A program made the translations under genes and the position numbers. From contig NC_012878.2 in assembly GCF_000003195.3 (NCBI RefSeq), forward strand, positions 18,018,641 to 18,082,640: DNA of 64,000 nucleotides, in the 5' to 3' direction. The notes beneath the pieces were generated by a model, which saw only the letters and a program-made list of their open reading frames with translations, ran no database searches and had not been told where the DNA came from. Shown piece after piece: positions 35,938-61,923 of this stretch. This DNA is from Sorghum bicolor. Lineage: Eukaryota > Streptophyta > Magnoliopsida > Poales > Poaceae. Every line of letters begins with the position of its first letter. The stretch's first letter is position 1.

Positions 35938-35973
35938 GCCCTTCCCCCTTAAAGAAATCTCGTCCCCGAGATT
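35938..35973 (-). promoter_or_regulatory. V polypurine tract and stem-loop
   Basis: On the minus strand TTTAAGGGGGAAGGGC abuts the LTR start TGTAACA. Upstream, AATCTCG-GGGA-CGAGATT (35956-35973) is a perfect 7-bp stem. The core CTCG-GGGA-CGAG resembles the stem-loop next to the X, W and Z polypurine tracts. Confidence 0.85.
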
Positions 35974-36142
35974 AAAGCCTTAGGGTAAGTAATGGAAAAG
36001 GAAATTTGTCAAAACTCTTTCATCTTCAACTATCCCAAAAAAACAAGAAGCGGGGAAAAGATTACTCAATTATAACATACATGTACACTAAGTACATGAC
36101 TTTGGCAACTCTTTTCCTTCACTAGAGTACACTCCCTATTTA

Positions 36143-39100
36143 TCAGGTGTTGTCTTGAAGAGAAGCGTGGAATTCAGGAAAATTGTCCATTAGGTAATCT
36201 TCAGATTCCCAGGTGGCTTCCTCTTCTAAGTGCTGGCTCCATTGTATCTTGTACCACTTGGTAGTTGTTCTTCGAGTAACTCTATGTCTTTGGTCCAATA
36301 CTCGGATAGGATACTCCGAATAAGTTAGATCCGGTTCAAGTTCCACATCTTCAATATCTTGAACTCGGTCTGGTACCCGAAGACACTTCTTCAATTGAGA
36401 CACATGGAATACATTATGTATCCCAGATAATCGCTCGGGCAGTTTAAGGCGGTAAGCTACCTGTCCACATCGGTCAATGATTGGAAATGGACCAATGTAA
36501 CGGGGTGCTAACTTGCCTTTAACACCAAAACGATTTACTCCTTTCATTGGGGATACCTTCAAATACACATGATCACCTTTGGCAAACCTAAACGGTCGAT
36601 GTCTTTTATCAGCATAGCTTTTCTGTCGGGACTGAGCAACTTTTAAGTTATTTTGGATTTGTCTAACTTTGTTCTCAGTCTCTTTCACTAAGTCAACCCC
36701 GAAGAACCATCTTTCTCCGGGTTCCGACTAGTGTAGCGGAGTTCGACATCGACGGCCATATAGTGCCTCAAAGGGAGCCATCTTGATACTTTCTTGGTAA
36801 CTATTATTGTAAGAAAACTCTGCTAGAGGCAAGCAGTCATCCCACTTATCTGGAAAATTCAGGGCACAAGATCTTAATAGATCTTCTAGGGTTTGATTTA
36901 CCCTCTCTGTCTGCCCACCTGTTTGAGGGTGGTAGGCTGTGCTGTATAAAAGTTTGGTGCCCAAGGATTCATGTAAGCATTTTCAGAACTGGGAGACAAA
37001 TTGTGTGCCTCTATCTGACACTATTGTCTTTGGGACCCCATGCAGACTTAGGATACGATCAAAATAAATCTTAGCATAGGTGGAGGCAGGATACAATAGC
37101 TTTACAGGCAAGAAGTGTGCGGTTTTGGTGAGACGATCCACTATGACCCAAATTGAATCAAAGCCTTTGGCTGTCTTGGGCAACCCTACTATGAAATCCA
37201 TACTTATATCATCCCATTTCCACGCTGGAATAGGCAAAGGTTGCAACTCTCTCGCGGATTTGAGATGAATAGCTTTGACCTTTCGGCAGGTATCGCATTG
37301 GGCCACATAGCGAGCTATTTCTATCTTCATTTTTGTCCACCAAAACCTTTGTTTTAGGTCCTGATACATCTTATTGCTTCCCGGATGAATAGAATACCTC
37401 GTGGTATGAGCTTCATCTAGGATTTGTTGACGTAGCTCAGGTACCTTTGGAACCACTAACCGGTTCTTGAACCAGATTAATCCTGCATCATCCACCTTAA
37501 AGTCTGTGGGTGCTCTATTTGAAATATTCTCTTTAAGATATTTCATACCTTTGTCTTCCTTTTGTGCCTCTATGATTTGAGCTTCGAGATTGAAATCAAT
37601 CTTTAGATTGGTAAGGCTTCCTTGGGAAATCATTTCTATCCCCAGGTTCTCTAGCTCTTGGCACAAAGTTATATATTTAGGCGTCACTGTTAAGCAATTA
37701 CAGTGAGCCTTACGACTGAGGGCATCAGCTACTACATTCGCCTTGCCTAGGTGATAATGCACCTCAAGGTCGTAATCTTTGATTAGTTCTAGCCACCTCC
37801 GCTGGCGCATATTAAGCTCGGCTTGAGTAAAGATATACTTCAAGCTTTTGTGATCGGTATATAAATGACATGTATTCCCCAACAGATAATGGCGCCAGAT
37901 CTTTAATGCATGTACTACAGCGGCTAGTTCAAGATCATGGGTCGGGTAATTTTCTTCATGTGGTTTAAGCTGTCTGGAAGCATATGCATTTACTCGACCC
38001 TCCTGCATTAGCACACAGCCTATCCCAATCCCTGATGCGTCACAATACACATCAACGGGTTTTTCAATATCTGGCTGGGCTAAGACAGGTGCAGTTGTCA
38101 ATAACCTTTTCAGAGTCTGAAAGGCTTGCTCACACTGAGGTAACCAAACAAATTTTGTTTGATTCTTGAGCAAGGTCGTGATTGGTTTGGCGACTCTTGA
38201 AAAGTCCGGGATAAAACGACGGTAATATCCCGCCATACCCAAAAAACTACGGACCTCATGTACCGTAGTCGGGGGTTTCCAATTCAACACGTCTTCTACT
38301 TTACCTAGGTCTACAGCGACTCCCTCCGCTGATAATACATGACCCAGGAAATGGACTTTGTCCAGCCAAAACTCACATTTGCTGAACTTGGCATATAGCT
38401 GATGCTCCCTAAGACGGGTCAGCACAATTCTCAGATGTTCAGCATGTTCTTTCTTGGTCTTAGAATAGATCAACATGTCATCAATGAAGACGACCACAAA
38501 TTTGTCTAGTTCTGGCATGAAGATAGAGTTCATCAAGTACATGAAATGGGCCGGTGCATTAGTCAACCCAAAAGACATTACCAAGTATTCATACAGCCCG
38601 TAACGGGTTGTAAAAGCTATCTTGGGTACATCTTCTGGCCTAATTTTAATTTGGTGGTACCCTGATCTCAAATCAATTTTTGAGAATACTTTGGCCCCGT
38701 CTAGTTGGTCAAACAGTAAGTCAATACGGGGCAATGGGTACTTATTCTTAATCGTCACCTCATTCAGGGGACGATAATCGACACACAGCCTTAATGTTTG
38801 ATCTTTCTTTTTCACGAATAAGGCTGGGCAACCCCATGGAGAAGAACTGGGCTGAATAAAACCTTTCTGCAACAGCTCTTGTAGTTGGGTTTTTAATTCG
38901 ACCAGTTCTTTCGGTGCCATTCTATAGGACCTTCGAGATATTGGTTTCTATTCTATACTGAACTGGACATCCCGGTCCGGTGGCAGACCTGGTAAGTCTT
39001 CAGGAAATACATCCGGAAAATCTCCAACTACCGGGATATCGTTGACTGCAGACACATTAGCGGCATGAACTTGCCCAATTGTCTGCTTGGGAGTAGCTAA

Positions 39101-40657
39101 CTGGATCAGAAGGTAAGATTTCTCATTGGGCAATGGGATTTTAATGGTTCGATGCAAGGTATCAAGCACAACCCCTCGTTGTGCCATCCAATTCATGCCT
39201 AGTATGACATCAATCTCCTGGTCTTTAAGAACAATCATGCTAGTGGGAAAATTATGCCCACCAAATTCCATGGGTATCTGGTGAACCATCACTTTAGAAT
39301 TCAGCCGTCCTCCTGGCGACTGTATATAAAAATGATCTTGTGTTTCCCCAATGGGTATGCCATGCTTTAACACAAAGGTGCGATTGATGAATGTATGAGA
39401 TGCACCATAATCGAAAAGCATTAAAGCAGGATGTTTCGCAACAGGAAACGTACCCATCATTACTGGTTCACCCTCCGGAATTGTCTCCACCTCCGTCTGG
39501 AAGACTTGTCCCACTTTCTTCGCTGGTTTCCCCCTTTGCACGTTTTGTCCTTTCTGAGCCCCAGTCCTGAATTGACTCGGCTGGGGTTGGCCCATAGGTG
39601 GCCTTTGGAAAGTGGTGTTGGTTTGGCGGGGGTAGGGGCACTTTATGGAAAAATGCCCAGGCTTACCACAATTGAAACAAGAGTAATTGTGGTTGGGCGG
39701 AGCAATAGGGCGAACACCTGGGGCGTTCGGCTGGCGTGGTGCGATAGCGATGGCAGTAGGTCGAGGATATACCTGCTGCCCTGGTCTATATTGTGTAGGG
39801 GAAAAAGGACCACGATAAGATGTCGGCGCTGGAAAGCGTCCGTGTCCTTGCGGATGATAAATGATTCTCTGGCGCTTTTGACCAGAGAAGGAGGAAGAAG
39901 CAGAATTCTTCTTGGCTTCTTTGTGCTTTCTATTCTTTTCTTCTGAGGCGATGGCAATATTTACCGCCTCGTAGAAGGTAGCATTTTGACAGGTGGTCAT
40001 CATTGTCTGAAGTTTGGTATTTAGACCATGCATGAAGTAGGCTTTCTTGTTTCTGTCCTTGTTCACATGGTCTGTGGCATATTGAGAGAGATGATTAAAT
40101 TTTGCCACATACTCCATGACACTTTTATCGCCTTGCTGCAAGGCGAGAAATTATTCGGCCTTCATGGCCATGAGCCCTTCAGGGATGTAATGGGCGCGGA
40201 ACATGTCCTTAAACTCGGTCCAGGTGACCTGGTGTCTCGGAGCTTGGATAGCTAGGAAGTTCTCCCACCAGGCACCTGCAGCTCCCCGAAGCTGCTGAGC
40301 TGCGAACAGGGGCTTCTGAGTTTCCGAACACTGAATCAAACTGAACTTGTGCTCCATGGTCCGCAGCCAGTCATCCGCTTCTAACGGCTCATCAGCCTTA
40401 GTGAATACCGGGGGCCTTGTCTCGGTAAAGTCCACGTACCGAGCTTCTCCGTCCCCATTGTGCGGTGCCCTGAAGTTTGGGGCGGGGTGTGGTTTGTGTT
40501 GTGCTAACTCGCGTAACAAGCGAGCGTTGTCGGTAGTGGCACTCAAAAGTACAGCAACGGCATCAGCCAAAGAAGGTGGAGCAGGTGGAGGGTTGGGGAT
40601 ATCATCCCCTCCCTGAGATGTCCTGGCTCCATCAGATCCTCGTGTACGCATCGGCAT
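36143..40657 (-). pseudogene. V gag-pol: gag, protease, RT, RNase H, integrase, chromodomain; four premature stops
   Basis: A single frame of about 1505 codons broken by TAA 40151-40153 (gag), TAG 38948-38950 (protease-RT junction), TGA 36983-36985 and TAG 36728-36730 (integrase). Gag has FRAHYIPEGLMAMK and the zinc knuckle CFNCGKPGHFSIKC near residue 324. The protease core LFDYGASHTF has Tyr for the usual Ser/Thr. RT has [20 protein letters not shown] and the catalytic FIDD near 38480. RNase H has [13 protein letters not shown] near 38040. Integrase has its HHCC zinc finger (CDTCRKVK), [16 protein letters not shown] and AYHPQTGGQTERVN. The last 60 residues form a chromodomain (YPIRVLDQRHRVTRRTT to ATWESEDYL), the targeting module typical of chromoviruses. 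Sense gag and ORF0 lie to the right. Confidence 0.95.
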
Positions 40658-40872
40658 CTGCTACAAGAGTCATAGGTACTTGTTACCACATGAAATTCAT
40701 AACTTAGAACATATCTTACATACTTCCATTTATTCATCAAACATTAGTTCAACACACCAGGAACAAATGAGTACAACTTCTTAAACTGAAAGAAAACTTT
40801 ATACTACAGACCCGACCCCACTACGGCAAACTAGGATTCCTACAGCGATGTTGCCCACGGCTTTTCACCGAA
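40658..40872 (-). other. V spacer between ORF0 and gag
   Basis: About 215 bp with stops in all sense frames and no recognisable signal. It separates ORF0 from gag, so gag would need re-initiation, splicing or an internal entry mechanism if ORF0 is translated first. Confidence 0.5.
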
Positions 40873-41577
40873 CTAGAAGGTGTGGCCAGAGCTGTAGCCC
40901 GGGTCGTCATTGCCATCGTCATGATTACCCCCCGGGTTGTCGTCATCGGGGTCGGACTCCTTTTCATCACTGAGGTCTTGGTCGGGTTCCCCTGCATCCG
41001 CCAACTCTCCATCCGTATCCATCTCTCCTTCGCCGGGAGGTGGATGGAGCTGATGATATAGGTCAAATGCAATATCACGATATTGCATTGCCAAGTCATT
41101 AACGGTGTCTAAATGATGTGCCAGCTCTAGCTTCTCCAACTGGAGCTGGTCCTCCCGCTGCCACGCGACATCCCGCTGCGCGGTGACTGTGGCCGCCATC
41201 TTCACGTACAGATCTTTGAGGTACTTGGCCTTACCCAGCTTTGCATTCATCCTAGTCAGCTCGTGCTTGTGTGCGCTCCTGGCCTCCTCTTCTCTGGCAA
41301 TAGCAGCATTCCTCTCCTCCACCCTACGGGACAGCATGGCCTCACAGTTCTCTGTGGCTTGTTTTTCTTTGGCTAGTTGAGCTTTAAGCTCGCCGATCTC
41401 CATGACGTTGTACATCCTTTCTCTCATCACTTCGGTCAGCTCGGCGGACAACCTGTCCACCTCCTGCTGGGGCGGTGAACGGCTACTACTTGCTTGATCG
41501 CTTCACGGGGCCATCTGGTGTTTGGGGACCCCTTTTGGACCTGTCCTCTTATGCGGGGTCTGTTTCCAACGGCCCAT
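40873..41577 (-). pseudogene. V ORF0: H3-tail-like N-terminus, coiled coil, acidic C-terminus; one premature TGA
   Basis: I place the start at ATG 41577, upstream of a TGA at about 41503-41505 that breaks the frame; the long open part begins after it. Residues 1-23 start MGRWKQTPHKRTG and end HQMAP. They align to the histone H3 tail at H3 positions R2, K4, Q5, T6, K9, T11, G12, K14, P16, Q19 and A21, with one inserted residue. Then follow a Ser/Gln linker, a long coiled coil (RLSAELTEVMRERM to LAMQYRDIAFDLYHQLHP) and an acidic Asp/Glu/Gly tail. The codon register matches ORF0 of D, which has a longer middle. Located between primer site and gag. Pre-gag ORFs have, as I recall, been noted in related rice elements; function is unknown. 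The H3 similarity is my observation. Confidence 0.75.
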
Positions 41578-41939
41578 CCTGTAGAGGGTAAGTTTGGATT
41601 AGTAAGAGAGACCTTACGGGTTAGCAAGAAGGGGATTGATTCTATACAACCCAACCAAAACATGGAGGAAGGAATTTAACCAAATGATATATCATGATGC
41701 ATGCACGTACTTACGATTCCTATAAGAAAATCATAACGATATCATTTCAAAATTTTTACAACATAGGGCAATACTTTATGTTGCTCCTCCAAACCACTAC
41801 CAAAAATTCTAAAAAGGCCTACCGATAGGGGTCAGATAAGACTAAGGCACTTGGACTCAAAATAGGCAAGTTTATAGTATTATATCCAAATGAGTTTTGA
41901 AGTTTTTCAAGAGATACCGCAGTCATACTAGCAACGAAT
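41578..41939 (-). other. V leader between primer site and ORF0
   Basis: AT-rich untranslated leader without a recognisable ORF. It would be the packaging-signal region by analogy with other LTR elements. Confidence 0.5.
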
Positions 41940-41951
41940 GCTCTGATACCA
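41940..41951 (-). other. V primer-binding site, initiator Met tRNA
   Basis: GCTCTGATACCA on the plus strand is the 3' end of plant initiator tRNA-Met, so the sense strand carries the standard TGGTATCAGAGC primer site, 2 nt inside the 5' LTR end. Confidence 0.95.
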
Positions 41952-41953
41952 GC

Positions 41954-44900
41954 TGTGGCAGAACCCCCTAAGTGTTTGGGCCCACTGGCACCTGTCATTG
42001 TCCCAAAGACCTCTGACGGTGGTGCCGAGGATCCTTCCACTTTAGAAGTCCGATGAGCATCTCAGGATGCTCGTTCCACCGCCACCTGGGGCGTATCAAC
42101 CAGGCTCGTCCTGACCACCAGCGATGGTCAATTAACGAAACTTTCTTCTCCTCGCCCTTACATGATAGCAAGTGGCCACCTTAACACCAGGATCATTCGT
42201 TGCGAAGACATTGCAGTACCACAGACGAGACAAGACCAAAATAATATTTCAGAGTAAAACAACGGAAGTATTACATAACTTATTTTACAAAAGGAGTTCT
42301 TCCAAATAACAGAGTGCTATTACAAACCAGGTCCAGCGGAGCAACTTAAACTTTAACACAGAGATTACAAATTTACAGACCCTGTCCATGGGTCACGCTC
42401 ACTCTTCTTCTTCGTCACCCTCGACGACGGTCACACAACAGGGTCCGAAAAAAGTCGGCTCCTAAACTTCACCTGCAACAGGGGTTATGAAACCCTGAGT
42501 ACAGGAGTACTCAACAAGACTTACCCGGTAGAAAAAGAGGAGAAGTTAGAGATGCAGACTTAGGGTAGACAAGGGGTGGCTGAGCAAGGAGCCAAAGTGT
42601 TTTGCCAAAAAGCTTACTAATAGTGCATTCTTACTTTCAAGTTTTACCCGCGAATTCCTCTCCTGAAGAGGCCGAGGAGTTTGAAGACAGTCTATCTAGT
42701 TGCCTCCCATAGACAGGTCTGTGAGTTCCTAGTCCTAAATTAAAGTATTAGACATCCAACGGCCATAGCTTCATGTCACTCTGAGTCCGGGAATTGGGAT
42801 CCGAACCTCATGAGACATTTCCCCTTTCTCGTTTTATCACTTAGTTGCATAATTAACTACGATGAGGGTCGAAGGAATTGAGTCTCCCAATCGGGGAGCA
42901 ACGACGATTCGAATCGCTTAGCAATCCAGCTGGAGTTCCTAACCACCCGACATATGTAGAACCAAATCTTGCATATGTCAACCCAAAGCAAGCTCTCCCC
43001 AAATTTGACCAGGTTCGCGGCACCCGAGAGCATAGTACTCCACCATCCTACAGCCGATCTAGATGTTTCCCGGTCATCCCAGATCCGTAAGGTGGGTACA
43101 CACTACTCTCGCCATCGTTCCACGCCCAGTGCGCGAGTAGCTGTTCGCGTCGAGGGATTACAAGATCGGGCTTACCAAGGGCAGGTGGCTAGTACTATAA
43201 ATTCTCAACCCAGCAGGCCATCAACGGACCGGTCCTTAACTGACACAGTTGGAGACACTACTTTAAGACTCCATTCTTAAAGCAAGTCCACCGACCGGTC
43301 TCAAGTTGAAACATCATTGATCATAAGTGTATTCCACAACAACCCTTCAAACTTTCTTGTTTGAAAACCTATCTAGTAGCAGGGCTAAGCATCACTACGC
43401 AGTTTTTAAAATAAAACAGGTGCCAAGGACAAGATAACAAATATCAAGGTAGTAAATGCAGCAAGTAGGTTAACCTAATTCTTGACTACCTAATGCAGCA
43501 TTTTCAATTCATAAGTGATAAAAGATTTAAACATTCAAGGAGGGGTTAATGCATCCGGGGCTTGCCTTGGTTGCAGGGCAGAGAGGGTCCCTCGGAGACA
43601 TCCCAAGTTTCGGATCCTACTTCCTCGAACGGAGCACCGACCTCGGGGTTCGGTTCAACGGTCGCTCCTTCGGTCACGTGGACTACACGCAAAATGATAT
43701 ATGCTCATGATATGCGTATGACAAATATGCAAAAAGGGACCAAGTTAAATACAACTGGCCACCTCGGTGCAACACAGAATAAACAATAATTGAAGTTGTT
43801 TAACATCTTAGTGTTTTTACCCAAGAGGTTGCATCTGTAAAATTTAGTATTTTTCTTAATTCATAAATATCATAAATTAACTAATTATTAATCCTATTTA
43901 CCTTAATTACTTCTTAAGTAATTATTAATGACAACAATTAAGCATTAAGACCAAACAATAATTAAATGCCAAAGGTCATTAGGGTTAATGACCTCAGGTC
44001 ATCACATAATCCCAAAATCACTCAAACCCTAATTTTGAGAATTTAACTAATTATTACCTAATTATCCTAGAAATATTATTTAATTACCAAATAGGGGTTT
44101 AATAATATTTTATTCAAACATTATCCAAATGCCACCAAATTTTGTGTGGAGCCAGGGAATAAATATTCAGAGACTCCCCTTAAATTTTGGAGATTTTTGG
44201 ACATATCAATAAATTATTAAAATTCATAGAAGTTTCATTTATTAAACAAAAGAGGCAATTTTCATACACATGTAAACTATCAGAAAATAAAATCTAATAT
44301 TTTTCTTGGGTTCTACTTATTTCAGGGAATCTATACAAAAATTTCCGTGATTTTTGGATCAACACAAGATTTATTACACAAATTCAAATATAAAGCAAAA
44401 ACTGCATAAAAAGAAAAAGAAAAACACTGCGCAGCGAGCCGCCGGGAAATCGGCCCGCAGGCCGGCCCGCTCCCGCTCGGCCCACGAGGGCGCTGCGTGC
44501 GCTTTCTCCCCCCTCATGCGGTCACTGCCCGTCAGACCCTCTTCCCCTTCTCTCTCTGCAGGACGCTGACGGGGAGACCCCACCCGTCAGCTCCTTCTCC
44601 TTCACGCGCGGCGGCACTGCCGCGGCTTCGGCCGCCGTTAGCGAGGGTCTCAGCTCGAGTGCGCGTGCGCATCGGCTTCGCCTCGACTTCGCGACCCCGT
44701 TGACACCCTCTACTCACGCTCTACCCTCTCCCTTCCACTCCGGCCACGCAAACGGCGGGCGACCGCCATGGCCGACCACGGACCGGCCACTAGGGCTCGG
44801 TAGAGCGTAAACAAATGGAACAGGGAGCTTCGGGGAGAGTTTAGGAGCACGGTGCTCACGTCACCACAGCGGGAGAAGCAGTAGAAGAGCTTGGCGACGG

Positions 44901-46187
44901 TGGCCGTGCGGTCGGGCGGGTGCTCCGGCTCCGGCGAGCTCGTTCCGGCGATCCTGTTCGCGTCCAAAGCGAAAGAGCGAGCGCATAAGTTGTAGGGGCG
45001 GAAAAGGAACCGGAAACAACCGCGAGTAAGGTGTGCCACTCAGTGGAACAGCGCGGCCACGGAGGGGGTTTCACGGCGGAGGTTTTTGCCGGAGTTGGAG
45101 AAGACCGAGGAGCACCGGTGATTGAGTGGGTTAGGGAGTGAGCTTGGGGGTGCGCTAGGTTCGCAAGGAGGTGGCGAAGATGGTGGTGCACTCGGGTGGC
45201 TTGGAAAGGGATCAAGGGGGACGAATTTCACGGTGGCGCGGGTGTTGCTCGTCGGCGTTCGTGGGAGCAAACGGAGGCGTGTCGGCGGGTGGAGAGACTT
45301 AAGTCGCGAATGGAGAAGACGCTCGGCTTCCACGTCGCCTGGCGACGCAGGCAAGCAAGCAGGCTGTGTGCCTGCACGCGCGCACGCAGCGCTGCGCGCG
45401 CGGTGGCCGCGATGGACACGGGCGCCGTGATCCATATCGGATCACTGTAGCTGACCCTTATCCCCTCTTCTCTGTTTTTTGTGAAATTCGGCCAAAATTT
45501 GAACTACAGTCAAAAACACACCAAAACAAAAGTTGTTCAGAATTTTATAAGCTACAAATCATATTTTGGTGACCAGAGCCAATTTTGAGTGGAACATGGT
45601 GAATTTGACCAAACAGTTTGAAGTTCAAAATCCAATTTGGGGAAATTCAAATTTTTGAATTGGGGCAGATCAGGGTTTCCAAAATTACTTTTGATTTTTC
45701 CAAACAACTTGAAAAACTCCCAATATGAAAGTTGTTCAACTTTTTGAGCTCTACAACTTTCATGTTGGTCACTTTTCAAAATTCCAAATAGATTTTGAAT
45801 TGGAGATTCAAATTGGAAAAGGGAACACTTTCTGGAAATCTGTATTTTCAAAATTACTTTGAATTTTGTATTGAAACTTCAAAAACTCAAAACATGAACT
45901 CAACTTCAAATTTTGCTTAGTTTTTAAATTGTGCAAAAGGGGGCAAATCTAGGGTTCAAAAATCAGGGTTTCCCCCCCTAATCTTTCGGAAATCTTTTAC
46001 CCTAGGGTTTTAGCAACCAACTCAAGTATCAATATACAAGATAAACACACTTTAATTCCCTAAGCACATTCAACCAACTTAAACTCATTTTAAGTTGATG
46101 CATCAAGGTGTGCTTAACAACTATGCTGTGCAATGCTGATGATGCCATGATCGGAATTTTAGTAACCGTAACATCTGGGATGTTAAA
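41954..46187 (-). mobile_element. V 5' LTR
   Basis: 4234 bp, same organisation as the 3' LTR. The right terminus reads TGTTAAA where the other LTR has TGTTACA, a point change in the terminal dinucleotide. It lacks about 46 bp near 45890 and differs by scattered substitutions. Spurious GC-block ORFs occur at 44350-45450. Confidence 0.92.
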
Positions 46188-49184: not shown

Positions 49185-50549
49185 CTAAGCGTAGAAGCAA
49201 CGTAGCTGTTCGATGTTCCATGCGTTAGTGAAGATCGCCCCCTTTTCGTCTGTGAGTTTGTACGTCCCTGGCTTTAAGACCTCAGCCACCACGTATGGGC
49301 CCTCCCAGGGTGGAGTCAGCTTGTGGCGTCCTTGATTGCTTTGCTATTGACGTAGGATGAGGTCGCCCATGTTCAGATCCCTTTTACACACGTGCTTGTC
49401 GTGGTAGCATCGAAGCTTTTGTTGATATCTTGCCGAGTTGAGGAGGGCCATGTCTCGAGCTTCCTCGAGTTGGTCGACCGCGTTCTCCCAAGTTTCCTTG
49501 TTTGTTTGCTCATTGTAGGCTTTGAGTCGAGGTGACCCATACTCGAGATATGTTGGAAGCACAGCCTTGAAGCCATAGACCATGAAGAACGAGGTGTATT
49601 TTGTGGCTCCACTCGGCGTTGTTCTTAGACTCCACAGGACCGAGGAGAGCTCCTCGACCCATTTCTTGCCGAACTTCTTCAACCGGTTGTAGATTCTAGG
49701 CTTGAGCCCTTGCAGGATCATACCGTTGGCACGCTCGAGCTCGCCGTTAGTTCGAGGGTGGGCTACTACAGACCAGTTCACACAGATGTGATGCTGGTCA
49801 CAGAAGTCTAAGAACTTTTTGCCGGTGGACTGTGTGCCATTGTCGGTGATGATGACGTTGGGTATCCCGAACCGGTGGATTATGTCGATGAACAAGAGGA
49901 CAACCTGCTCGTAGCGGATTTTTGTGATGGGTCGAGCCTCGATCCATTTAGAGAATTTGTCGATGGCTACTAATAGGTGGGCATATCCCCTCGCCGCACT
50001 CTGGAGGGGACCTACGAGGTCGAGGCCCCACACCGCAAATGGCCAAGTGATGGGGATCATATGCAGTGCATGACCGAGGAGGTGGGTTTGCTTGGTGTAA
50101 AACTGGCACTTGTGGCATGAGCGAACAAGCTCGATGGCATCAGCGATGGCCGTTGGCCAGTAGAAGCCTTGTGGATCCTCGAGGAGCTTTCGACCTTCCT
50201 CTATGGTGATGCAGCGCTGCAATATCCCGGTTGAGCTTCGTCGGTACAGTTCTTTGCCTTCAACATAGATTACGTATGATTTGGCCCGTCGAGCAATACG
50301 ACGGGCCTCGGCTCGATCTTTTGGTAATTCGCCCTGGATTAGGCAGTCGAGGAAAGGCGTGCGCCAGTCAAAAGGTCGACCAGGGCGTCGAGGAGTTTGC
50401 TTGACCTCCATTACCTCTGCCGCCGTCAGCAGGGCCTCGATTGCATCGGTGGGCTCGGCGGTGGAGGTTTCGACGCTAGCCCCTGAGCCTAGGTCGATAG
50501 ACAGTTCCAGCAGGTCCTTTGAGAATGTGTCTGGTGGGACAGTTCCTAT
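49185..50549 (-). pseudogene. T2 (Tat-type Ty3) pol, RNase H-integrase linker and integrase
   Basis: The minus-strand frame covers the linker (LELSIDLGSGASVE), the integrase zinc finger (RSCHKCQFYTKQTHLLGH), and the catalytic core with GLDLVGPLQSAARGY, VIITDNGTQ and PRTNGELERANG for the D, D and E residues. The C-terminus ends WNIEQLRCFYA at the natural stop 49185-49187. A premature TAG at 49344-49346 precedes QSNQGRHKLTPPWEGPYVV. There is no chromodomain, as expected for Tat. Upstream pol (RT and RNase H) is missing because the sequence joins directly to the D1 LTR fragment near 50550. Confidence 0.9.
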
Positions 50550-52212
50550 GGTCCGGTCACTCCTGCAGATCTCCTTCCGGCTCTAGTCCTCCCGGAAGTT
50601 CCTGGTCCTGGGTCTTCTCCTGCTTCTCGGGTCCCACCTTGTTCTCCTGCAAGCCTGTATGATGCATGTGTGCTCATGAGTGGAGTGCAGTGACGCTCGA
50701 AGTGCAATGCTTGTGCAAGTCAAATCACGATGATCATGACATGGTGCACAGATAAAGCCAGAAACTATTTCTGCAAGGTAGTCAACATCATCCAAGAACA
50801 CATATTCAAATATTAAAGCATCTATTTCATTCTCTTCTACTAGTTATTATTATCAATCAGCAAGCTATTAGGATGCTTCAAAGATACACCAAACACTATT
50901 TATTTTATTTATCTTATGCATAGCAAGGTTTTATTTATTCAATTACTATTGGGCCTACAACAGTAGCATATACTTCTGAACCTCAATAAATTCTACAAAA
51001 ATTATAGTACGTCACTGGTTAATTATAAAGTTCACCACAAATTTTTCATAATATTTGGGCAGATAGTTTGGCCTACACAAAAATCACAAGCTTACTTGAT
51101 ATAATTAAGTATAAATACCCTACTGGTGACAAAGTGTCAAACAACAGATTTCATATTTTTATAAATTTCTTACTACATAAGAAATGTCCACAACAATTCG
51201 CAGATTAATTGCATGATCCAATTATTTATTAAAAATCATAAACCATTTCCATTCAAGCATTTAAATCATCATAAATAAATTTATATAGCAAATATTGTGT
51301 TACATATTTTTCCCAGAGACTAGACATCCATGCAAAGCTAGTAAAACAAGAATCACATTTTTCTGAGCTGTATTTCAATTACTGCCCATTTTCTAATAAC
51401 AACAACATCATGGAATAATTAAATTTACACAGAAAAGTTGTATAAACATGACATGCTATCACACCAAGCTGTTGATCTAGATTTATAGAACACATCGCAT
51501 TTTATTTCATCATTTTTGGAGCCATAAATCTCAAGATATGATTTAAATACTATTTAAACAAATTTCTAGAAAACCTTTTTAAAACGAAACCGATTCAAAA
51601 CGCTGTGTGCACCCGGATCCCAACTCCCAGAGGCACTGATAGGCGGGACCTGTACGTCAACCGACCCCACTCATCAGTCACCCTGAGCATCCGCGGCCGT
51701 GGACCGGCCAGGATCTCACCGCCGATGAGGCATCCGGTGACCCCAAGGGCATCTACGGCTTCCCGAGCACGAGACAAACCTAACCGTACCCTTCTCAGTG
51801 CCTAACAAGCACTGAAGTTACCTCGTCGTCGAGCATGGCGGACGCGGCGGTGCTGCTCACCGCGGTTCGGCCATCTTGCTGTGGTAGAACGCGAACCAAT
51901 GACGGGAAACTGTGGGCGACGTTGAGGCGGAGCTAACACGCTTAATAAAGCATGCAATGGTGGAGAGGAGAGGGAGAACCACTTGAGCCGAGAGGTCGCC
52001 GGAGCTCCGACTTACTCCGGTGAGCTCTAACGGGCGCGCTAAGCTTACCGAAGGCGATTGGGCGCATGCGCGGGGTGCGGGAGGGCGTGGCGAAGTCGCT
52101 GGCGTCCGAGGATTTGAGGGAGGAGGCCGAAGCAGCTGGAGAAAGAAGCCCCGAGCGCCGGCAGTAATGGCGAGTGGCGGGGAGAGGGAGACACACTGGT
52201 GGACTGGGCCGG
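50550..52212 (-). mobile_element. D1: truncated 3' LTR of Del element D
   Basis: Matches the middle of the full LTR 56405-60335 at a constant offset (about 57907-59530 and 59757-59795), with a further internal gap of about 220 bp. Both LTR termini are missing: the left side joins T2 integrase-linker DNA, the right side joins RT coding sequence. The surrounding TSD cannot be identified. ORFs in the GC-rich part (51595-52241) are LTR noise. Confidence 0.85.
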
Positions 52213-54222
52213 CTTTGGTATATCTTGCGGGTGGATCTTGATTTGGTGATACCTGGACCTCAAATCTATCTTGGAGAATACTTTTGCTTTTGACAACTAA
52301 TCGAACAGGATATCAATCCGTGGCAAGGGATACTTATTCTTGATGGTCACCGCATTGAGTGGACGATAGTCCACGCACATGCGCAAACATTGATCCTTCT
52401 TTTTCACAAACAGCACCGGACAACCCCATTCGGACGAACTCGGCCGGATAAAAACCTTGTTTAGTAGTTCCTTCAGCTGGGTTTTCAATTCAGCGAGCTC
52501 GTTAGGTGGCATCCGGCACAGTCTTCTAGAGACTGGTGCTCTACCCGGTATCAACTCTATAGTAAACTCTACTTTCCTATCCGGTGGAAGTATTGGTTAC
52601 TCCTCCGGAAAAACATCAGGAAACTCACAGACCACTGGTACGTGCTCTAGTGGAACCACTTGTACGACACACGAAAGACTAGCAAAATCAAATCGTCGTG
52701 GTAACCTAATCTGAAGTATGCCCTCCCCAAACGGATCCTTAAGGGAGAGAGTTCTCTGTCCAGCGTCTATGACTGCACCCCAGTCGGTCATCTTATTCAT
52801 CCGGATGATAATGTCCAAAACTAACCCTGGCATGACTACAAGGTTTACGAGAAACCTTTGGCCACTGATATCCAAGGTAGCCCCTGTTACTGCTTTGTTG
52901 GTCAACACATCAGCCCTAGCTGAACTGATGCGATAACCACAACCTAACTCGGTAACTGGTTGATCATGCTTTTGTGCAAATTCTTGGCTCATGAATGAAT
53001 GCGATGATCCAGAATCAAACAAAACAACTGCAAGATGTTGGTTGACAGGGAACATACCAGCTGTTACCAGTTCTCCTTCCGGGATCTCCTCTATCGAGCT
53101 GTGGTGCACACCGGCTGGGTAGGTCATCTGCTGTTTCTTGGGATAGGGACATTCTTTAGCAAAACGTCCCATCTTGTGGCAGTTGTAGCATGGCCCCTTG
53201 GTCATGGTGTTGGCAGCAGATGCTGCAGCTTGATTCGACCTTGGCTTTGCTGGAGCCACTGCTACCTTGTACGGCTTCAGCTGTGTTGGATGCCCTGCAT
53301 TCCTCTTCTGCGGAGGTCAGAACCTCGCACCTAGGGCAGGAGGACGGTATTGCTGATGTCCTGCCACTGGTGCCCTGGACTGAGACGATCCGGCTTCAAA
53401 AGCCCTCTTACATGACTTGGATGCACTATAATTGTTGTTATTGTTCTCTTGAGTCAGACAGTCACAGATGTAGGCATTGAAAGTAGACCGGGTCCCTGTA
53501 CCCATAGTCTACAACATCTTTGGGCTCAAGCCTCTCTGGAAACCAGCGATCTTCTTGGCCTCTATGTTCACGAACTCTGGAGTGTAACGAGCAAGATTGT
53601 TGAAAGCGATTAGATACTCTTTCACAGACTTGGTCCCCTGAGATAGCTTCATGAATTCTCCAATCTTCGTCTCCACCACACCTAGAGGAATATAATTTCC
53701 CCAGAAGGCGGTGGTGAAGCGGTTCCATGTGATCGGGGTCCCCTCTGGGTAGGTGGTACGATGATGGGACCACCAAATCCCAGCAGGCCCCTACAGCTGG
53801 TGCGCTGCATATTCCACCTTGAGCTCCTCGGTCATCCGAAGGAGATGGAACTTCTGCTCAATGGTGTTAATCCATTCATCCACTTCCTGCGGTTCCACGT
53901 TTTCCTTAAAGACCAGTGGTTTGGTGTCCATAAAGTCCTTGAAATAGCTGTACTGATTTATTTCATGGCCGCCTTGGTTATCCCCACGGCGGGTGTTGTC
54001 GGCGATATTGCGTAGGGCTTCTTCCATGTTTCGCTGCATCTGTTCCATGTTCCGCTGACTCCCCAGAAACTACGTGAAAAGCACGTCCACAGTGTACAGA
54101 GGAGGTGGTAGTGGTGGCGGCGTTGGTGCTCTTTCCTCATTCCTGCAAGCCCCACGTCTGGAAGAACCTTCTCTAACACTGGGGTTGTTGTTACCCCCGC
54201 CACACGTTTGCACCATCTGCAT
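52213..54222 (-). pseudogene. D gag-pol remnant: gag, zinc knuckle, protease, N-terminal RT
   Basis: One frame from ATG 54222 with stops at about 54092 (TAG), 53791-53793 (TAG), 53317-53319 (TGA), 52597-52599 (TAA) and 52297-52299 (TAG). Gag has KPLVFKENVEPQEVDEWI and KLSQGTKSVKEYL. The zinc knuckle reads CYNCHKMGRFAKEC, with Arg where the zinc-binding His should be. The protease core LFDSGSSHSF is intact. RT keeps [18 protein letters not shown] and [16 protein letters not shown], then breaks off at IPK (about 52215), where LTR sequence begins. The catalytic RT motif, RNase H, integrase and chromodomain are deleted. The 5' neighbour is ORF0. Confidence 0.9.
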
Positions 54223-54551: not shown

Positions 54552-55595
54552 CTACTCGCTATGGTCGTTGTCCATGCCGGAGCCTTCCTTGTCCTCACCT
54601 CCACTAGCGGCTGCCTGCATCTCCAGATCCTCATCCATCTCATCCTCAGAATCTAACTCAGCTGCTCCAGGCAGGTGGTGAGGATGGAGCTGGTTATGCA
54701 GCTGGTGGATCTCCTCATTCAGGTTCTCATTGTACTCCTTAGCATTAGCTTGCTGCTGCTCAAGCTCCAGCTGTCGGGCCCTCAGGGTGTCCTCCTCATG
54801 CCAGGCTTCATTCCTCTGACCAAGCACATGAACTAGCATGTGCTCGCAGTTCCTGTGAGCTATGGTCACCCTGTCCCTATGCTCTCTCACTGTGAGCAAA
54901 TCCTGACTCAATTCACTATTCTGCTGTACTGCATGGTCCCTCTCTAAAGTCACATGGGCCAACTCTGCCTGCAGCCTCTCAACCTCACTGTCAAACTCAT
55001 GCTGTAGCTGGCGCTTCTCATCCTGAACTGTCAGAAGAGATCCAGACAAGTGTCCCAAACAGTGCTCTAGACCCCCATAGGTCTTCATCATGGCGAACAT
55101 AGCACTCATAGTTGTACTGTCACTGTGCTGATCCTCATCCGCGCTCCTCTCTAGAGCATTCACCACGGACTGATCCCACACAGAAATGTAGGGGTCACCC
55201 CGGGGAAACACCCTAGCGAAGGCATGCGCCAACTCCTGCGGAAACCTCTCCATGATGTCCCTCATAACCGCAAAAGCAGCCCTGCTGGCACCCTAGAAAG
55301 GCGTGGTACCTCGGGACTCGTACACCCAGCCACCCCAGGCGGGGTCACCTCCACTGGTAGGAATCACTGCCTCGATCCCCACCAGGGTCCCGTCACCGAG
55401 CTGCTCTCTGTTGCAATAGTAGCGAGGTTCCCTTCCTTCAGGATACCCCATCGAACTGAGCACCCTCCACAACAAGGTAGGCATCCCAAACTACCCTAAA
55501 AACTTGCTCTTGTGACGCGAGATCCTAGGTGCTAACTGGTGGCGAGGGGCCCGCCCACCAGTGGACTTACGAGCGGTGAGCCTAGTGCGTGGCAT
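54552..55595 (-). pseudogene. D ORF0: protein with histone H3 tail-like N-terminus, globular middle, coiled coil and acidic end
   Basis: ATG 55595 opens a 347-codon frame with TAG at 55491-55493 and 55293-55295. The first residues read MPRTRLTARKSTGG then RAPRHQLAPR. Aligned from the initiator Met without gaps, 16 of the first 23 post-Met residues equal histone H3, including TARKSTGG, APR and QLA. H3 K9 and S10 are kept, while K4, K14 and K23 are Arg and K18 is His. No histone fold follows. Next is a region with GYPEGREPRYYCNREQLGDG and AVMRDIMERFPQELAHAF (about residues 48-125), then a coiled coil (about 165-305) containing EIHQLHNQLHP, and an acidic tail. Located between primer site and gag. 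ORF0 of V shares the N-terminal pattern and the QLHP-acidic end. Function unknown; mimicry of H3 is inference. Confidence 0.85.
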
Positions 55596-56390
55596 TTGCT
55601 GAAAATAGAGTACCTTGGGTAAGACTGAGGATTATCTTTTATTTTAATTTAAATTGGAAGGTATTTAAATAAGGGGAGGAAGTAAGCAATGATATGAAAT
55701 GAACATGATGCATGCACGAATCTTACGATCTCACAAACTTAGAAACAAAAGTTAATACTAATCGGTATATACGGTGGCACACAACATCCTCTCATAACGT
55801 AACTAGTGTTCTATGCAAGAACGTGGTTAGCATACCTGCAAAAAACTCATTTCAGCCCAATCACAGTATGAACATGGAGAACAAAAATTTAAAACTATGG
55901 ACCACACACACATAGGTACCACACCTATGCATATGGCGTACCACTACCCACATCATCGCCCTAATGACGGCATCGCCTCTCAGGATGGAATCTCCCAACA
56001 TGTGGTATTGTTCCCAGGCACACTGAATATGCGTGCATGACACAGCACCTTAAGGAGCTTCCCTAGATCGGCAGTGTATCTGATCATACTCTCACAGCTC
56101 CCACTTACCGAGACGTAGAGGAAATTGATCCATTCATTACCACTCAAGTGAATGGCACTCATACTATTACACGCCATATGAGCGACGAAATAGAAATATG
56201 ATGCATAACCTCCATATCACCTTAGTGTCCTTAACTGGGCATAAAGGATATGACCAACGGCACACTGTGTAGTTTTCCAAAAAAAACTCATTTTGACACC
56301 TTGAATACTACCAATAGGTAATTAACTTTTATTAACTAGTTTTAATTTTTGCTTTAGAACGAACTTATGAACAGTAATCTGCTGAACCTT
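55596..56390 (-). other. D leader between primer site and ORF0
   Basis: About 0.8 kb of untranslated sequence, longer than in V. No ORF I trust; an 89-codon ORF (56354-56623) crosses the LTR boundary. Confidence 0.5.
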
Positions 56391-56404: not shown

Positions 56405-59400
56405 TGTAACTGAACCGCCCAAATTATAAGAGATTAAGCCTAATAGTGACCATTTGCACAGTTGAACCGTCAAGCTTAAGCCCATATAATCCCGGTAGTC
56501 CGTGAAATCTCGAAGGATTTCAAACCACGAATCATACATACAGCCAAGATCGTAATAAGTCCAACAATCACCATCCACAGTTACATTCAGCTCACAACAT
56601 TCAACAATTACATTGGAGTTCACTTAAGGTTATTACAAACTAAGTTCAAGAGTAGCGGAAGCATCGTAGTTTTAAAATAACACACACACTTAGTCTGATA
56701 CAATATCAAAAGAAGATGTGGAGTGACCATCGCCCTTGGTCTAGTCATCACCCATTTCTGGGTGCAAGCAGTGAATGCAATAACTATAGTACATCTGACC
56801 ATCTACAAAACAGCATGGGAATGGAACCCTGAGTACGAGAATGTACTCAGCTACACTTACCCGTCATAAACCAAAATAAAAGACTCTTCAAGGACCATGA
56901 AGGCTGTATAGTTGGGTAGCTAAAACCTTTTTGCGTAAAAGCGTTACCCATCTAAAAGTATATCCTAACATACCCACTTTCTTTACTTAGCTCAGGTTAG
57001 GTATTATTACCTATCATCTAGGTTTGCACCTATACTATTGCAAACAAGTGTTGTGATATGATAATACCTTATCATAGCATTCACAATTCTTTACTTATCA
57101 TAACCCAAGTGTTTCATAGTCCTTAATACGAGGACGTAGCTCAAGTCAAGTGCTCACTATCTAGGAGCGATGGCGATTCGAATCGATTTCTAACTAGCTG
57201 GCGAGTTTATTCCCCACACAAACCACACTCACTGATCAAGTAAACTACAGGTCACCGTATTGCACTATTCAGGACTAATTCACGGGATCGACAGGCACCG
57301 CCCGTACCCGAGGACTGTTCCGGCGACCGAGGTATCCAAGGTATACCAAGGTTGCGCGCCGCGCCCTCGTCGTTCTCCTCAACCATCACCAATACAGCGC
57401 GTACATCGGGCCGATTCCCGGCCTGAATAGTGCTCAGCCTTCAAGGTCGGAACGACTTATCCTTCTATCTAAGTGTGGGGCATTCGTTCAACATGACAAG
57501 AGGGCCGTCAACGATCGGTCCTTAATCGACACAGGCAGGGGCACTACGGTCAACACCACCATAAGACCTAGCTCGATCTCAAGTTCATTCCCACACTTGG
57601 TTACTTTTCATCATAGCATTGACAGCTAACATTCAGGTATCCACCTATATCTTGCACGTGACAGAAAATCATCCGACTTCTATCGTACTAGGCAAGCTAA
57701 GCATAGACTCTGCGCCTATCTACATAGGACAAGGTAGATACTGAAGTGGTGATATCAAGGAGTAATTATGCATCACCGGTATCAAGCAACTCCTATCACT
57801 TAAATGCAGCATAGTAGAACAATCATGATATATCATATTTAATTTAGCAAGAATAGGGAGACTTAGAATGCTCCGGGGCTTGCCTCTCTCGAAGGTGCTA
57901 GGCTTGTGGTCCGGGCACTCCTGCAGATCTCCTTCCGCCTCTAGTCCTCCCAGAAGTTCCTGCTCCTGGGCCTCCTCCTGCTCCTCGGATCCCACCTCGT
58001 TCTCCTGCGAGACTGTATGATGCATGTGTGCTCATGAGTGGAGTGCAGTGATGCTCGAAGTACAATGCTTGTGCAAGTCAAATCACGATGATCATGACAT
58101 CGTGCACAGATGAAGCAAGAAACTATTTCTGCAAGGTAGTCAACATCATCCAAGAACACATATTCAAATATTAAAGCATCTATTGCATTCTCTTCTACTA
58201 GTTATTATTATCAATCAGAAAGCTATTAGGATGCTTCAAAGATAGACCAAACACTATTTATTTTATTTATCTTATGCATAGCAAGGTTTTATTTATTTAA
58301 TTACTATTGGGCCTACAAGAGTAGCATATACTTCTGAACCTCAATAAATTGTACAAAAATTACAGTAGGTCACCGGTTAATTATAAAGTTCACCACAAAA
58401 TTTTCATAATATTTGGACAGATAGTTTGGCCTACACAAAAATCAAAAGCTTACTCGATATAATTAAGTATAAATACCCTACTGGTGGCAAAGTGTCAAAC
58501 AACAGATTTCATATTTTTATAAATTACTTACTGTCATAAGAAATGCCCACAATAATTTCCAGATTAATTGCATGATCCAGTTATTTATTAAAAATCATAA
58601 ACCATTTCCATTCAAGAATTTAAATCATCATAGACAAATTTATAAAGCAAATATTGTGTTACATATTTTTCCCAGAGACTAAACATCCATGCAAAGCTAG
58701 TAAAACAAGAATCACATTTTTCTGAGTTGTATTTCAATTACTGCCCATTTGCTAATAACAGCAACATCATGGATTAATTAATTTTACACAGAAAAGTTGT
58801 ACAAACATGACATGCAATTACACCAAGCTGTAGATCTAGATTTAAAGAACACATCACATTTTATTTCATCATTTTTAGAGCCATAAATCTCAAGATTTGA
58901 ATTAAATACTATTTAAACAAATTTCTGGAAAACCTTTTTAAAACGAAACCGATTCAAAACGCTATGTGCACCCGGATCCCATCCCCCAGAGGCCCTGATA
59001 GGTGGGACCCGTAGGTCACCCGACCCCACTCGTCAGTCACCGAGAACATCCGCGGCCGTGGACCGGCCGGGATCTCACCGCCGGTGAGGTCTCCGGTGAC
59101 CCCAAGGGCATCTACGGCTTCCCGAGCGCGAGACGAACCTAACCGTACCCTTCTCAGTGCCTAACAGGCACCGGAGCTACCTCGCCGTCGAGCATGGCGG
59201 ACGCGGCGGCGCTGCTCACCGCGGTTCGGCCATCTCGCTGTGGTAGAACGCGATCCAACGACAGGAAACGGTGCGTGACGTTGAGGCGGAGCTAACGCGC
59301 TTAAAAACGCAGGCAATGGTGGAGAGGAGAGGGAGAACCACGCGAGCCGAGAGGTCGCCGGAGCTCTGACTCGCTCCGATGAGCTCTAACGGGCGCGCTA

Positions 59401-60335
59401 AGCTTACCGAAGGTGATTGAGTGCGCGCGGGCTGCGGGAGGGCGAGGCGAAGTCGCTGGTGGCCGAGGATTTGAGGGAGGAGGCCGGAGCTGCCGGAGAA
59501 AGAAGCTCCGAGCGCCGGCGGTAATGGCGAGCGGTGGCGCGGGTCGCTGCTGCGCACGGCCAAGGGAGAGGGCGAGTGAGAGAGTGGAGAGGCACAACTG
59601 GCAGCGGGGGAGGAGGCGGGCCCGACCGGGCGCACCTGGTTGCCGACCAGGGTGCGTCGACCCCGGCGCATGCGTGCCACGCGGCGGCCGAGCTCTGCCG
59701 GCTTGCCACGGCGTCGTGGCGCGGCCGTCAGCGCGTGGACATGGGCACGGGCTTATGCGCGGGGAGTGGGAGACGCGCTGGTGGGCTGGGCTGCCTTCGG
59801 CTAGCGGGCTAGAAGCGAGGCCGCGGCCTGCTAGCGCCCCGCCTTTCCCTTTTCCAATTTTATTTTTTTGTTTCTTTTTCCCAAAAGCTTAAATGCAGTT
59901 TTTGAAGCCCTTGCAAGCTTTTTCAGAAGTTGAAGTAAAAAGAATAATTGTTCTCCACAAAATTCTCTACAACTTTGCTTTAAGATGCAAGTTCAAATTC
60001 CAAACAGAATTTGAATCACAAATTAAAACTAGTTCTAGGTTTTTAAATAAATTCATTTTGGGGATTTTTGGTATAAAATCCATTTCTCAATTTCTAGAGC
60101 TCCAAAAATTTCACAAAATTATCCTCAATTCCTCTAAAACATAATTCAACTTATTTTGGTCTTTTACAAGAAAATTTAAAGCAAGCATACAAATTATATC
60201 ATATTTAATTCATTTAAATATATCACATAAAATCACAACATACAAACTACCATGTTTAGGTGATGCTATGCTCATGCTATGCTTGATGAGGATGCTTATG
60301 AGACTAAAGGCATGCTTAACACCTAGGGTGTTACA
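56405..60335 (-). mobile_element. D2: full Del LTR shared by D (as 5' LTR) and E (as 3' LTR)
   Basis: 3931 bp; sense TGTAACACCC... to ...CAGTTACA. A primer site abuts its left end and a polypurine tract its right end, so it is at once the 5' LTR of D and the 3' LTR of E. AT-rich and GC-rich blocks resemble the V LTR. The GC block (59000-59830) gives several overlapping spurious ORFs. Confidence 0.9.
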
Positions 60336-60372: not shown

Positions 60373-61923
60373 TGGGTTACTAACCATTTCTTATGAAATT
60401 TTGGATAAACTGTTTTTGGTAATCCTCTGTTTCCCAGGTGGCGTCTCTATCATCGTGATGACTCCACACCACCTTGTAGGTTTTGACAACTCTATTCCTA
60501 GTTACCCGCTCCTTGGTATCTACAATACCCACTGGTTGCTCTTTATATTCCAAATCTGCCTTTATCTTGATCCCCCGAGGTTCGATCCTCTGTTCAGGTA
60601 CCTTCAAACACTTTCTCAACTGGGATACATGAAAAACTGGAAAGATCGAGCTCAGCTCTTCAGGTAACTGGACCTTGTAGGCCACAGGGCCTTTCCGTTC
60701 TTTTATCTGATACGGTCGAACGTATCTAGGTGCAAGCTTACTTCGAACTCGGAAGCGCTGAACTTTCTTCATTGGTGTGACCTTGAGATAAACATAGTCA
60801 CCCACATTAAACTCAAGCGGCCTTCTTCTCTTGTCGGCATAGCTTTTTTGGCGTGACTGCGTGGCTCTCATGTGTTGTTGTATCATTTGCTCTTTCTTCT
60901 CAGCATCGTTCACGAAGTCGATACCATAGGACCTCCTTTCACCACATTCGGCCCAGTTTAACAAAGTCCTACACTTACGACCATACAAAGCTTCGAAAGG
61001 AGCCATCTTGATACTCTCTTGATAGCTATTGTTGTAAGAGAACTCAGCCAAAGGTAACCATGATTCCCAAGATCCCCTTGAAGATAGCACACAATCTCTC
61101 AGCATATCTTCAAGCACTTGATTGAGTCTTTCCGTTTGACCAGAGGTTTGAGGATTATACGTGGTGTTTCTCACCAGACTAGTCCACAAACTCTTATGCA
61201 TTCGCTTCCAAAAGTGAGCGGTGAACTGCGGACCACTATCTGATATGATGGTCTTGGAGATACCATGCAGCTTGATCATTTCAGCCATGTACAAATCAGC
61301 ATACTCGGGAGGTCTGTACGAGTTCTTCACTAGAATGAAATGAGCCGACTTGGTCAACCGATCCACGATTACCCAAATTGAGTCATCCCTCTTCGCGTAG
61401 TTGGCAAACCTGTGATGAAGTCCATACTGACCTCTTCCCACTTCCACTCTGGAACTGATAACGGTTGCAACAACCCTGTGGGTTTCATGTGTATAGCTTT
61501 GACTCAGCAACACGTGTCGCATGGGGCTACATAGGCTGCTATCTCTTTCTTCATTTTTGTCCACCAGAAATGAGACTTTAGATCCTGATACATCTTACTA
61601 CTCGCGGGATGGATAGAAAGTTTTGAAAGATGTGCTTCATCCATGATTCGATTCTTTAGTTCTCGATTCTTTATAACTACCAACCGATGTTGAAACCATA
61701 GTACACCTTTCTCGTCTACTCAAAACTGAGTCTTAGAATCCCCCTTGATCTTTTCTTTGATATGAGAAATGTCCTTGTCTGTTTTCTGACATTCGATGAC
61801 TTGGCTCCCAAGTGAACAACTGAGTTGTATGTGACATAAAACCTCAGGATGCATGAGATTGAAACCATCTTCAAACAAAGGCTGGACCACTTGATAATGT
61901 GGTTTACGACTTAAGGCATCTGC
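60373..61923 (-). pseudogene. E gag-pol C-terminal part: RNase H-integrase linker, integrase, chromodomain; interrupted by U
   Basis: The frame 61564-60380 contains [53 protein letters not shown] and EFSYNNSYQESIKMAPFEAL of the integrase. It ends with GPVAYKVQLPEELSSIFPVF and a chromodomain (QPVGIVDTKERVTRNRVV to DATWETEDYQ). Upstream to 61923 the RNase H end (DALSRKPHYQVVQ) and zinc-finger region are readable in shifted frames with stops. U inserted inside the ALSRK region at 61924. Gag, protease and RT of E lie beyond the right edge. Confidence 0.9.

Follow-up and report, generated by a model that had tools for sequence, protein, structure and literature searches.

ORF0 proteins related to that of retrotransposon D from Sorghum bicolor share, within a sample biased towards this feature, a start that resembles the histone H3 N-terminal tail. 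The module begins at the initiator Met, is common to all groups of relatives recognized here and is far more conserved than the rest of the protein. Our preferred reading, held with slightly better than even confidence, is that the tail was captured from H3 and retained because it imitates H3 towards host proteins that bind the H3 tail, with competition for host readers as the favored possibility. ORF0 itself has already been published; its H3 tail was not found in the literature searched. An H3 tail at its front offers a specific, testable lead to the function of ORF0 in grass Tekay/Del elements: the host silences such an element by marking the H3 tail, and the transposon would bear a modified version of that same peptide.

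H3-like starts in two elements of the window

The window, that is, the whole stretch of 64,000 nucleotides analyzed, contains two retrotransposons with an ORF0, here called D and B (Table 1). Translation of D ORF0 on the minus strand from position 55595 opens with MPRTRLTARKSTGGRAPRHQLAPRISRHKSK. Alignment of the D tail, MPRTRLTARKSTGGRAPRHQLAPR, with H3 shows 16 of 23 residues after the Met to be identical (17/24 with Met included), with an unbroken TARKSTGG, Arg at positions 4, 14 and 23 and His at 18. The residues named in an earlier note on this DNA, including the retained K9 and S10, are thus borne out by the alignment. The interval 54552-55595, given in the same note for ORF0, is not an open reading frame: from 55595 to 54552 it reads MPRTRLTARKSTGGRAPRHQLAPRISRHKSKFLG, a stop, FGMPTLLWRVL... 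and a second stop, so that in-frame TAG triplets at codons 35 and 101 sever the tail from the remainder. The longest ATG-initiated frame listed within this interval, 54552-55265 (237 aa), lacks the tail. The D copy is decayed and dead and shows only a remnant of the tail protein; being a fossil, it requires that any claim of mimicry be tested on its relatives.

In a tblastn search of the window with H3, the top match was the start of D ORF0 (E 3.4e-7), and the next two matches were tied at E 0.25, one of them at the initiator Met (41577) of B ORF0, whose start, MGRWKQTPHKRTGPKGVPKHQMAP, is a diverged form of that of D. A tail profile built from 23 database relatives, with D and B excluded, found exactly two places in the six frames of the window, namely D with 74 bits and B with 53 bits of a possible 86.5, and no match above 8 bits in 20 shuffles. 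Also, the best PDB match of the A5 profile was H3 (E 3.3e-7). Chance resemblance, in favor of which only the shortness of the stretch can be cited, is refuted by the E value of 3e-7 in the window, by exact 14-residue starts in 6 of 25 tails and by the 20 shuffles, and its probability is next to nil.

Table 1. Features of elements D and B and their surroundings in the window.
Feature	Positions	Strand	Evidence
Decayed ORF0 of D with in-frame TAG stops, at codon 35 (55491-55493) and at codon 101 (55293-55295)	54552-55595	-	Translation
H3-tail-like module of D ORF0, Met and residues 1-23	55524-55595	-	Translation, tblastn, H3 alignment, profile
dsRBD-like domain of D ORF0, contains second stop	55230-55490	-	Range transferred from P0009 model; alignment with relatives
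Coiled-coil-like stretch of D ORF0	54666-55028 (approximate, by eye)	-	Translation; similarity to the coiled coil in ORF0 of B at E 1e-5 to 5e-5
Acidic C-terminus of D ORF0	54555-54664 (approximate, by eye)	-	Translation
Splice-acceptor-like TTTCAG ending three bases before D ORF0 ATG	55599-55604	-	Sequence
CAG then ATG at D gag start	54214-54219	-	Sequence
D gag end and protease; RVP_2 above, zinc knuckle below cut-off	52597-53316	-	Pfam
Second copy of D-flanking repeat; D pol appears to end against this copy	50549-52174	-	Translation, repeat comparison
LTR-like repeat flanking D, 93% identical to 50549-52174	57907-59531	-	Repeat comparison
Integrase with chromodomain, just upstream of D-side LTR repeat; Pfam Chromo below cut-off	60380-61522	-	Pfam
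Element B; LTR pair ~31649-35935 and 41954-46185, 96.7-98.3% identical	31649-46185	-	Repeat comparison
B primer binding site, exact TGGTATCAGAGC	41940-41951	-	Pattern match
B ORF0, start MGRWKQTPHKRTGPKGVPKHQMAP; in-frame TGA at codon 25	40873-41577	-	Translation
Diverged H3-tail-like module in ORF0 of B, longer by one residue	41503-41577	-	tblastn, alignment, profile
B integrase C-terminus with chromodomain	36143-36727	-	Pfam, structure alignment

Element B is Tekay-like and appears full-length: its repeats measure about 4.2 kb (31649-35604 and 41954-45894 are 96.7% identical), and it has an exact match to the primer binding site pattern linked to the initiator tRNA, an ORF0 before gag and a chromodomain integrase. 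Long LTRs and an extra ORF upstream of gag, a Tekay/Del feature, are thereby found in B; in the Retrosat2 group the LTRs are longer than 3 kb. In D, ORF0 likewise precedes gag, but the LTR repeats are only partial and do not give the LTR length of this element, which seems to have lost most of its pol, since this stops near 52174 against a repeat copy. At 52170-52320, D pol stops near the start of the RT against the LTR-like repeat, and the integrase at 60380 lies beyond the other repeat; this integrase is possibly of the same family as D, and the two together look like a rearranged or tandem arrangement.

Two motifs, EEXTWEXE and (K/R)X(L/T)RX(K/R), are given for the Tekay integrase C-terminal chromodomain (PMC3350952, partial text). 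By eye, B has EEATWESE and lacks the second motif, and the element at 60380 has RVTRNR, with RDATWETE in place of the first. The Pfam Chromo cut-off is passed in B only, of the two chromodomains of the window. Elsewhere in the window, a Copia-type RT/RNase H remnant can be read from the plus-strand translation at 879-2060.

Conservation of the tail among relatives

A protein search with words from residues 1-110 recovered seven relatives at E ≤0.001, among which the full tail occurs only in P0007 (MARTKQTAHKSTGGRAPRHQLAPR) and P0001 begins at the tail end; a protein search at E ≤10 recovered two, P0007 and P0008. With a chimeric tail probe, 59 matches were obtained at E ≤10, and 23 of them were kept as ORF0-like, including P0028, P0032 and P0038 with E >0.001. 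Together with D and B these make up a set of 25 tails. Relatives free of a stop in the tail region are present in the database.

H3 residues 1-13 are exact (MARTKQTARKSTGG) in six tails (P0011, P0015, P0019, P0024, P0032, P0038), and at least 11 of the first 14 residues, Met included, match H3 in 17/25. The H3 residue is kept in 24 of the 25 tails at R2, T6, K9, G12, L20 and A21, in 23 at T11 and Q19, in 22 at R17 and in all of them at P16. Other positions vary: position 4 is K in 17, Y in 5 and R in 3; position 8 is R in 18 and differs in 7 (H in 5); position 10 is S in 21 and R in 4; and position 14 is K in only 4, with R in 17. At position 18 K never occurs (H 16, G 6, R 3), at 22 T is absent and P is found in 20/25, and at 23 K is absent and R is found in 22/25. 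After the Met, every tail carries A, G, P, T, S or V. Residues of this kind allow the Met to be removed, which would leave an H3-like free end.

Elements D and B retain different H3 residues (K4, Q5 and K14 in B but not D; T3, A7, R8, S10 and G13 in D but not B), which points to decay from an ancestor more H3-like than either. The recurrence across groups of the ORF0-specific H18, P22 and R23 argues against repeated fresh captures.

The proteins were sorted by eye into six groups: C1, the D type, with a dsRBD-like domain and a coiled coil; C2, the B type, with a coiled coil but no such domain; C3, the P0008 type, with an acidic linker followed by a domain; C4 (P0024); C5 (P0026); and C6 (P0032, P0038). 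By eye, C4 and C5 have coiled-coil wording in common with C1. The D and B ORF0s sit on retrotransposons of the window, and C3 and C6 presumably derive from such elements too, as judged only from their architecture.

For 18 of the 25 tails, tail and rest were compared pairwise. In all 122 between-group pairs the tail was more alike than the rest, with between-group means of 0.52-0.92 for the tail vs 0.19-0.35 for the rest, against a shuffled control with mean 0.26 and maximum 0.36. Within groups this was so in 26/31 pairs, and in C3 in none of three. Over nine representatives, the mean majority was 0.89 from Met to residue 23 vs 0.28 over the next 21 positions. In this tail-biased sample, the conserved module ends abruptly at residue 23; the probe held words past residue 24, so this end was not made by the query alone. 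On the other hand, most relatives were found by tail-derived words, so that tail conservation is overstated and relatives that lack the tail would be missed. The earlier note had argued that the resemblance would amount to chance or a single capture if tail conservation were no higher than elsewhere or if most relatives lacked the tail. Within the sample the tail is the better conserved part; that most relatives carry it does not follow from sequences picked by tail words. For published ORF0s, identities of 7.6 to 90.2% are given in PMC3485330, whose available text does not speak of a common start, and the tail need therefore not be general.

These comparisons also bear on whether the tail is a functionless fossil that goes back to a single capture. 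The D and B copies are both interrupted, D seems to have lost most of its pol, and the D-B codon comparison is saturated and gives a tail constraint no stronger than that of a C-terminal stretch. A functionless relic would hardly persist across groups that outside the tail are scarcely more alike than the shuffled control, nor would conservation stop at residue 23, and we regard this explanation as improbable.

Sequence context of the start and domains behind the tail

A splice-acceptor-like YAG precedes the ORF0 and gag ATGs of both elements on the minus strand (at 55599, 41579, 54217 and 40658). In all eight relatives with an upstream frame (P0007, P0010, P0021, P0023, P0024, P0025, P0026, P0027) a Gln precedes the start, as CAG would give, and this is likewise the case in P0041, an H3-like ORF. 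A possible source of this pattern is an intron in the leader that stops at the start codon and that may have been captured together with the tail from an H3 gene. At the YAG sites, alternative splicing might decide whether ORF0 or gag is made. The occurrence of YAG 0-3 bases before 4/4 of these starts, vs 118 of 1192 ATGs on that strand, could also speak for a DNA- or RNA-level constraint at the ORF0 start (splicing, packaging), to which the peptide would be incidental. However, the codons differ at 5 of the 11 positions where the two tails have the same residue, and the match is one of protein sequence, which leaves this explanation highly doubtful.

Behind the tail, D-type ORF0s are predicted to contain a dsRBD-like fold followed by a coiled coil and an acidic end. 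The P0009 model has an alpha-beta-beta-beta-alpha fold over residues 41-120 (pLDDT block means 80-88) and most of its top PDB matches are dsRBDs, the best Foldseek E value being only 4.8e-3; no Pfam dsRBD match was obtained for P0009 and the relatives searched. The low-confidence model of P0032 (C6) shows the helix/strand order of a dsRBD fold, and dsRBDs appear only among its weak matches. A Lys-rich start of helix 2 is the classical dsRNA-binding motif of dsRBDs. Compared with plant DRB proteins (DRB7.2, DRB4, HYL1), the ORF0 domain differs in that its second helix has no such start as classical dsRNA binders possess, a KKxAK-like pattern being absent at helix 2 in 13/13 aligned sequences, so RNA binding by this domain is doubtful.

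The module resembles the H3 N-terminal tail in its register from the initiator Met and, in the six exact tails, over residues 1-13. It differs from H3 in ending at residue 23, in never having K18, T22 or K23, in having K14 in only 4/25 and in that no histone fold was found behind it. Pfam gave no match to the histone fold (PF00125) for P0003, P0007 and two pieces of D, and no histone match in P0009, P0012, P0019, P0022, P0024, P0025, P0026, P0032 and P0038.

The extra 5' ORFs of the grass Tekay/Del elements Retrosat2, RIRE3, RIRE8, ZMsat2 and Sorsat2 are like D and B ORF0 in lying upstream of gag in long-LTR elements and in evolving fast, and for the published maize and sorghum proteins a long helix at the C-terminus is described, together with weak structural similarity to a DRBM (PMC3485330, PMC11728184, partial texts). 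Compared by description only, the published grass ORF0s differ in that the H3 tail is the feature added here; metabolic enzymes were proposed in the 2012 paper (PMC3485330, partial text). The word 'histone' is absent from the available portions of PMC3485330, PMC11728184 and PMC7264820, the last of which also lacks 'Tekay' and 'ORF0'. No report of an H3 tail on ORF0 was found among the titles and opening lines of abstracts covered by the literature searches, outside of which lies the key survey of extra ORFs, Steinbauerova 2011; that survey is cited in the available text of PMC11728184 for the resemblance of some extra ORFs to plant domains.

Possible roles of the tail

Under the preferred reading, Met and residues 1-23 would have been captured from an H3 gene and placed ahead of the ORF0 domains. 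After removal of the Met, ORF0 would display an H3-like free N-terminus, to which host readers and writers of the H3 tail may bind, perhaps methylating K9. In every tail K18 and K23, and in most tails also K14, have given way to residues that do not accept acetylation. By binding KYP/SUVH, CMT3, SHH1, PHD or BAH readers, ORF0 could weaken the silencing of its element or steer it elsewhere, or it could anchor complexes of the element on chromatin. The mimic idea of the earlier note thereby gains strong support from the relatives: some have better tails than D (residues 1-13 exact in 6/25), K9 is kept in 24/25, and the tail outlasts the rest of the protein.

Cells normally mark the H3 tail to silence such elements, and R8 is needed by several H3K9 enzymes. 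With K9 kept and the K18 and K23 acetylation sites gone, the ORF0 tail looks like a tail locked in the silent state. In plants, silencing relies on H3K9 methylation read by CMT3 and SHH1, the latter recognizing unmethylated K4 together with methylated K9 (PMC7617993, partial text). Several observations weigh against mimicry: K4 is replaced by Y or R in 8/25 tails, R8 is altered in 7 and S10 is R in 4, the last two possibly hindering K9 methylation; within C3 the tail is the less alike part in 3/3 pairs; the D-B codon comparison is saturated and both copies are interrupted; and Lys to Arg changes at 14 and 23 keep the charge, as a plain basic signal would.

Such a signal, for nuclear import or nucleic acid binding, is an alternative in which the H3 tail was captured as a good import signal and sees no reader of histone marks. 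Besides the basic charge, kept as Arg at 14 (17/25) and 23 (22/25), it agrees with the predicted nuclear location of grass 5' extra ORFs (PMC11728184, partial text). However, the uncharged T3, T6, T11, G12, G13, P16, Q19, L20 and A21 (21-25/25) are as conserved as the basic positions, and the register begins at the first Met, which import does not need; we consider this alternative unlikely. Even a tail that served import only would document that part of a host histone gene was probably captured.

A narrower form of mimicry is suggested by the maize CMT3 ortholog ZMET2, which binds H3 residues 1-10 (K9me2) together with 14-23; K18, placed in an acidic pocket with contacts to R17, L20 and T22, is needed to switch the enzyme on (PMC9256654, partial text). 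The ORF0 module spans residues 1-23 and keeps K9 (24/25), R17 (22) and L20 (24), with K18 and T22 in none of the tails. ORF0 might then be a decoy for chromomethylase, its K9-methylated tail occupying CMT3 without activating it; the element would then counter CHG methylation by means of a changed version of the activator of that enzyme. Loss of K18 may stem from one ancestral event and thus counts once, the changes at R8 (7/25) and S10 (4/25), possible obstacles to K9 methylation, speak against a decoy, and we hold this role to be rather unlikely.

The earlier note had also proposed that ORF0 engages the integrase of its own element through the chromodomain, linking ORF0 to integration. Both proteins belong to one kind of element, HP1-type chromodomains bind H3K9me, and a plant type II chromodomain colocalized with an HP1-like protein in one study cited in the available text of PMC3350952. 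This proposal is weakened by the alignment of the chromodomains at 60380 and 36143 to solved ones: among the aromatic cage positions, Trp is kept at the middle place and His replaces Tyr/Phe at the third in both. The first place lies at the margin of the printed alignments or beyond them; judged by eye, the element at 60380 has no aromatic residue there, and the Tyr of B is one residue off. In type II chromodomains the first cage residue is missing, as in most cases is the last, and no partner has been identified for them (PMC6317226) and no interacting factor found (PMC3350952; both partial texts). With a cage that looks incomplete, binding is unlikely, and the ORF0 tail appears to be a poor, if still conceivable, ligand of its own integrase; that this is its role we judge very improbable.

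Known histone mimics, namely PAF15, the influenza NS1 tail and the motifs of G9a and LIG1, are like the ORF0 tail in showing a short H3-like stretch to readers or writers, and they are shorter or internal. To our knowledge, no such mimic is known from a plant retrotransposon. If binding were demonstrated, ORF0 would be a retrotransposon-encoded histone mimic, and its tail, H3-like by nature but devoid of the customary acetylation sites, could be used as a tool.

Further H3-like sequences came up beside the ORF0 set. P0042, P0059, P0061, P0062 (Talaromyces pinophilus) and P0064 form a second, non-histone family that starts with MARTKQTARKSTGGRAPR... and has no Pfam histone fold, the start of P0042 having a sub-threshold PAF histone-like match; this family is probably an independent H3-tail mimic, perhaps in fungi. 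P0033 and P0057 are further non-histone carriers of H3-tail sequence: one is from Mycena and has TARKSTG three times, along with RING and ankyrin matches below threshold, and the other is a RING protein in which the H3-like stretch lies close to the start.
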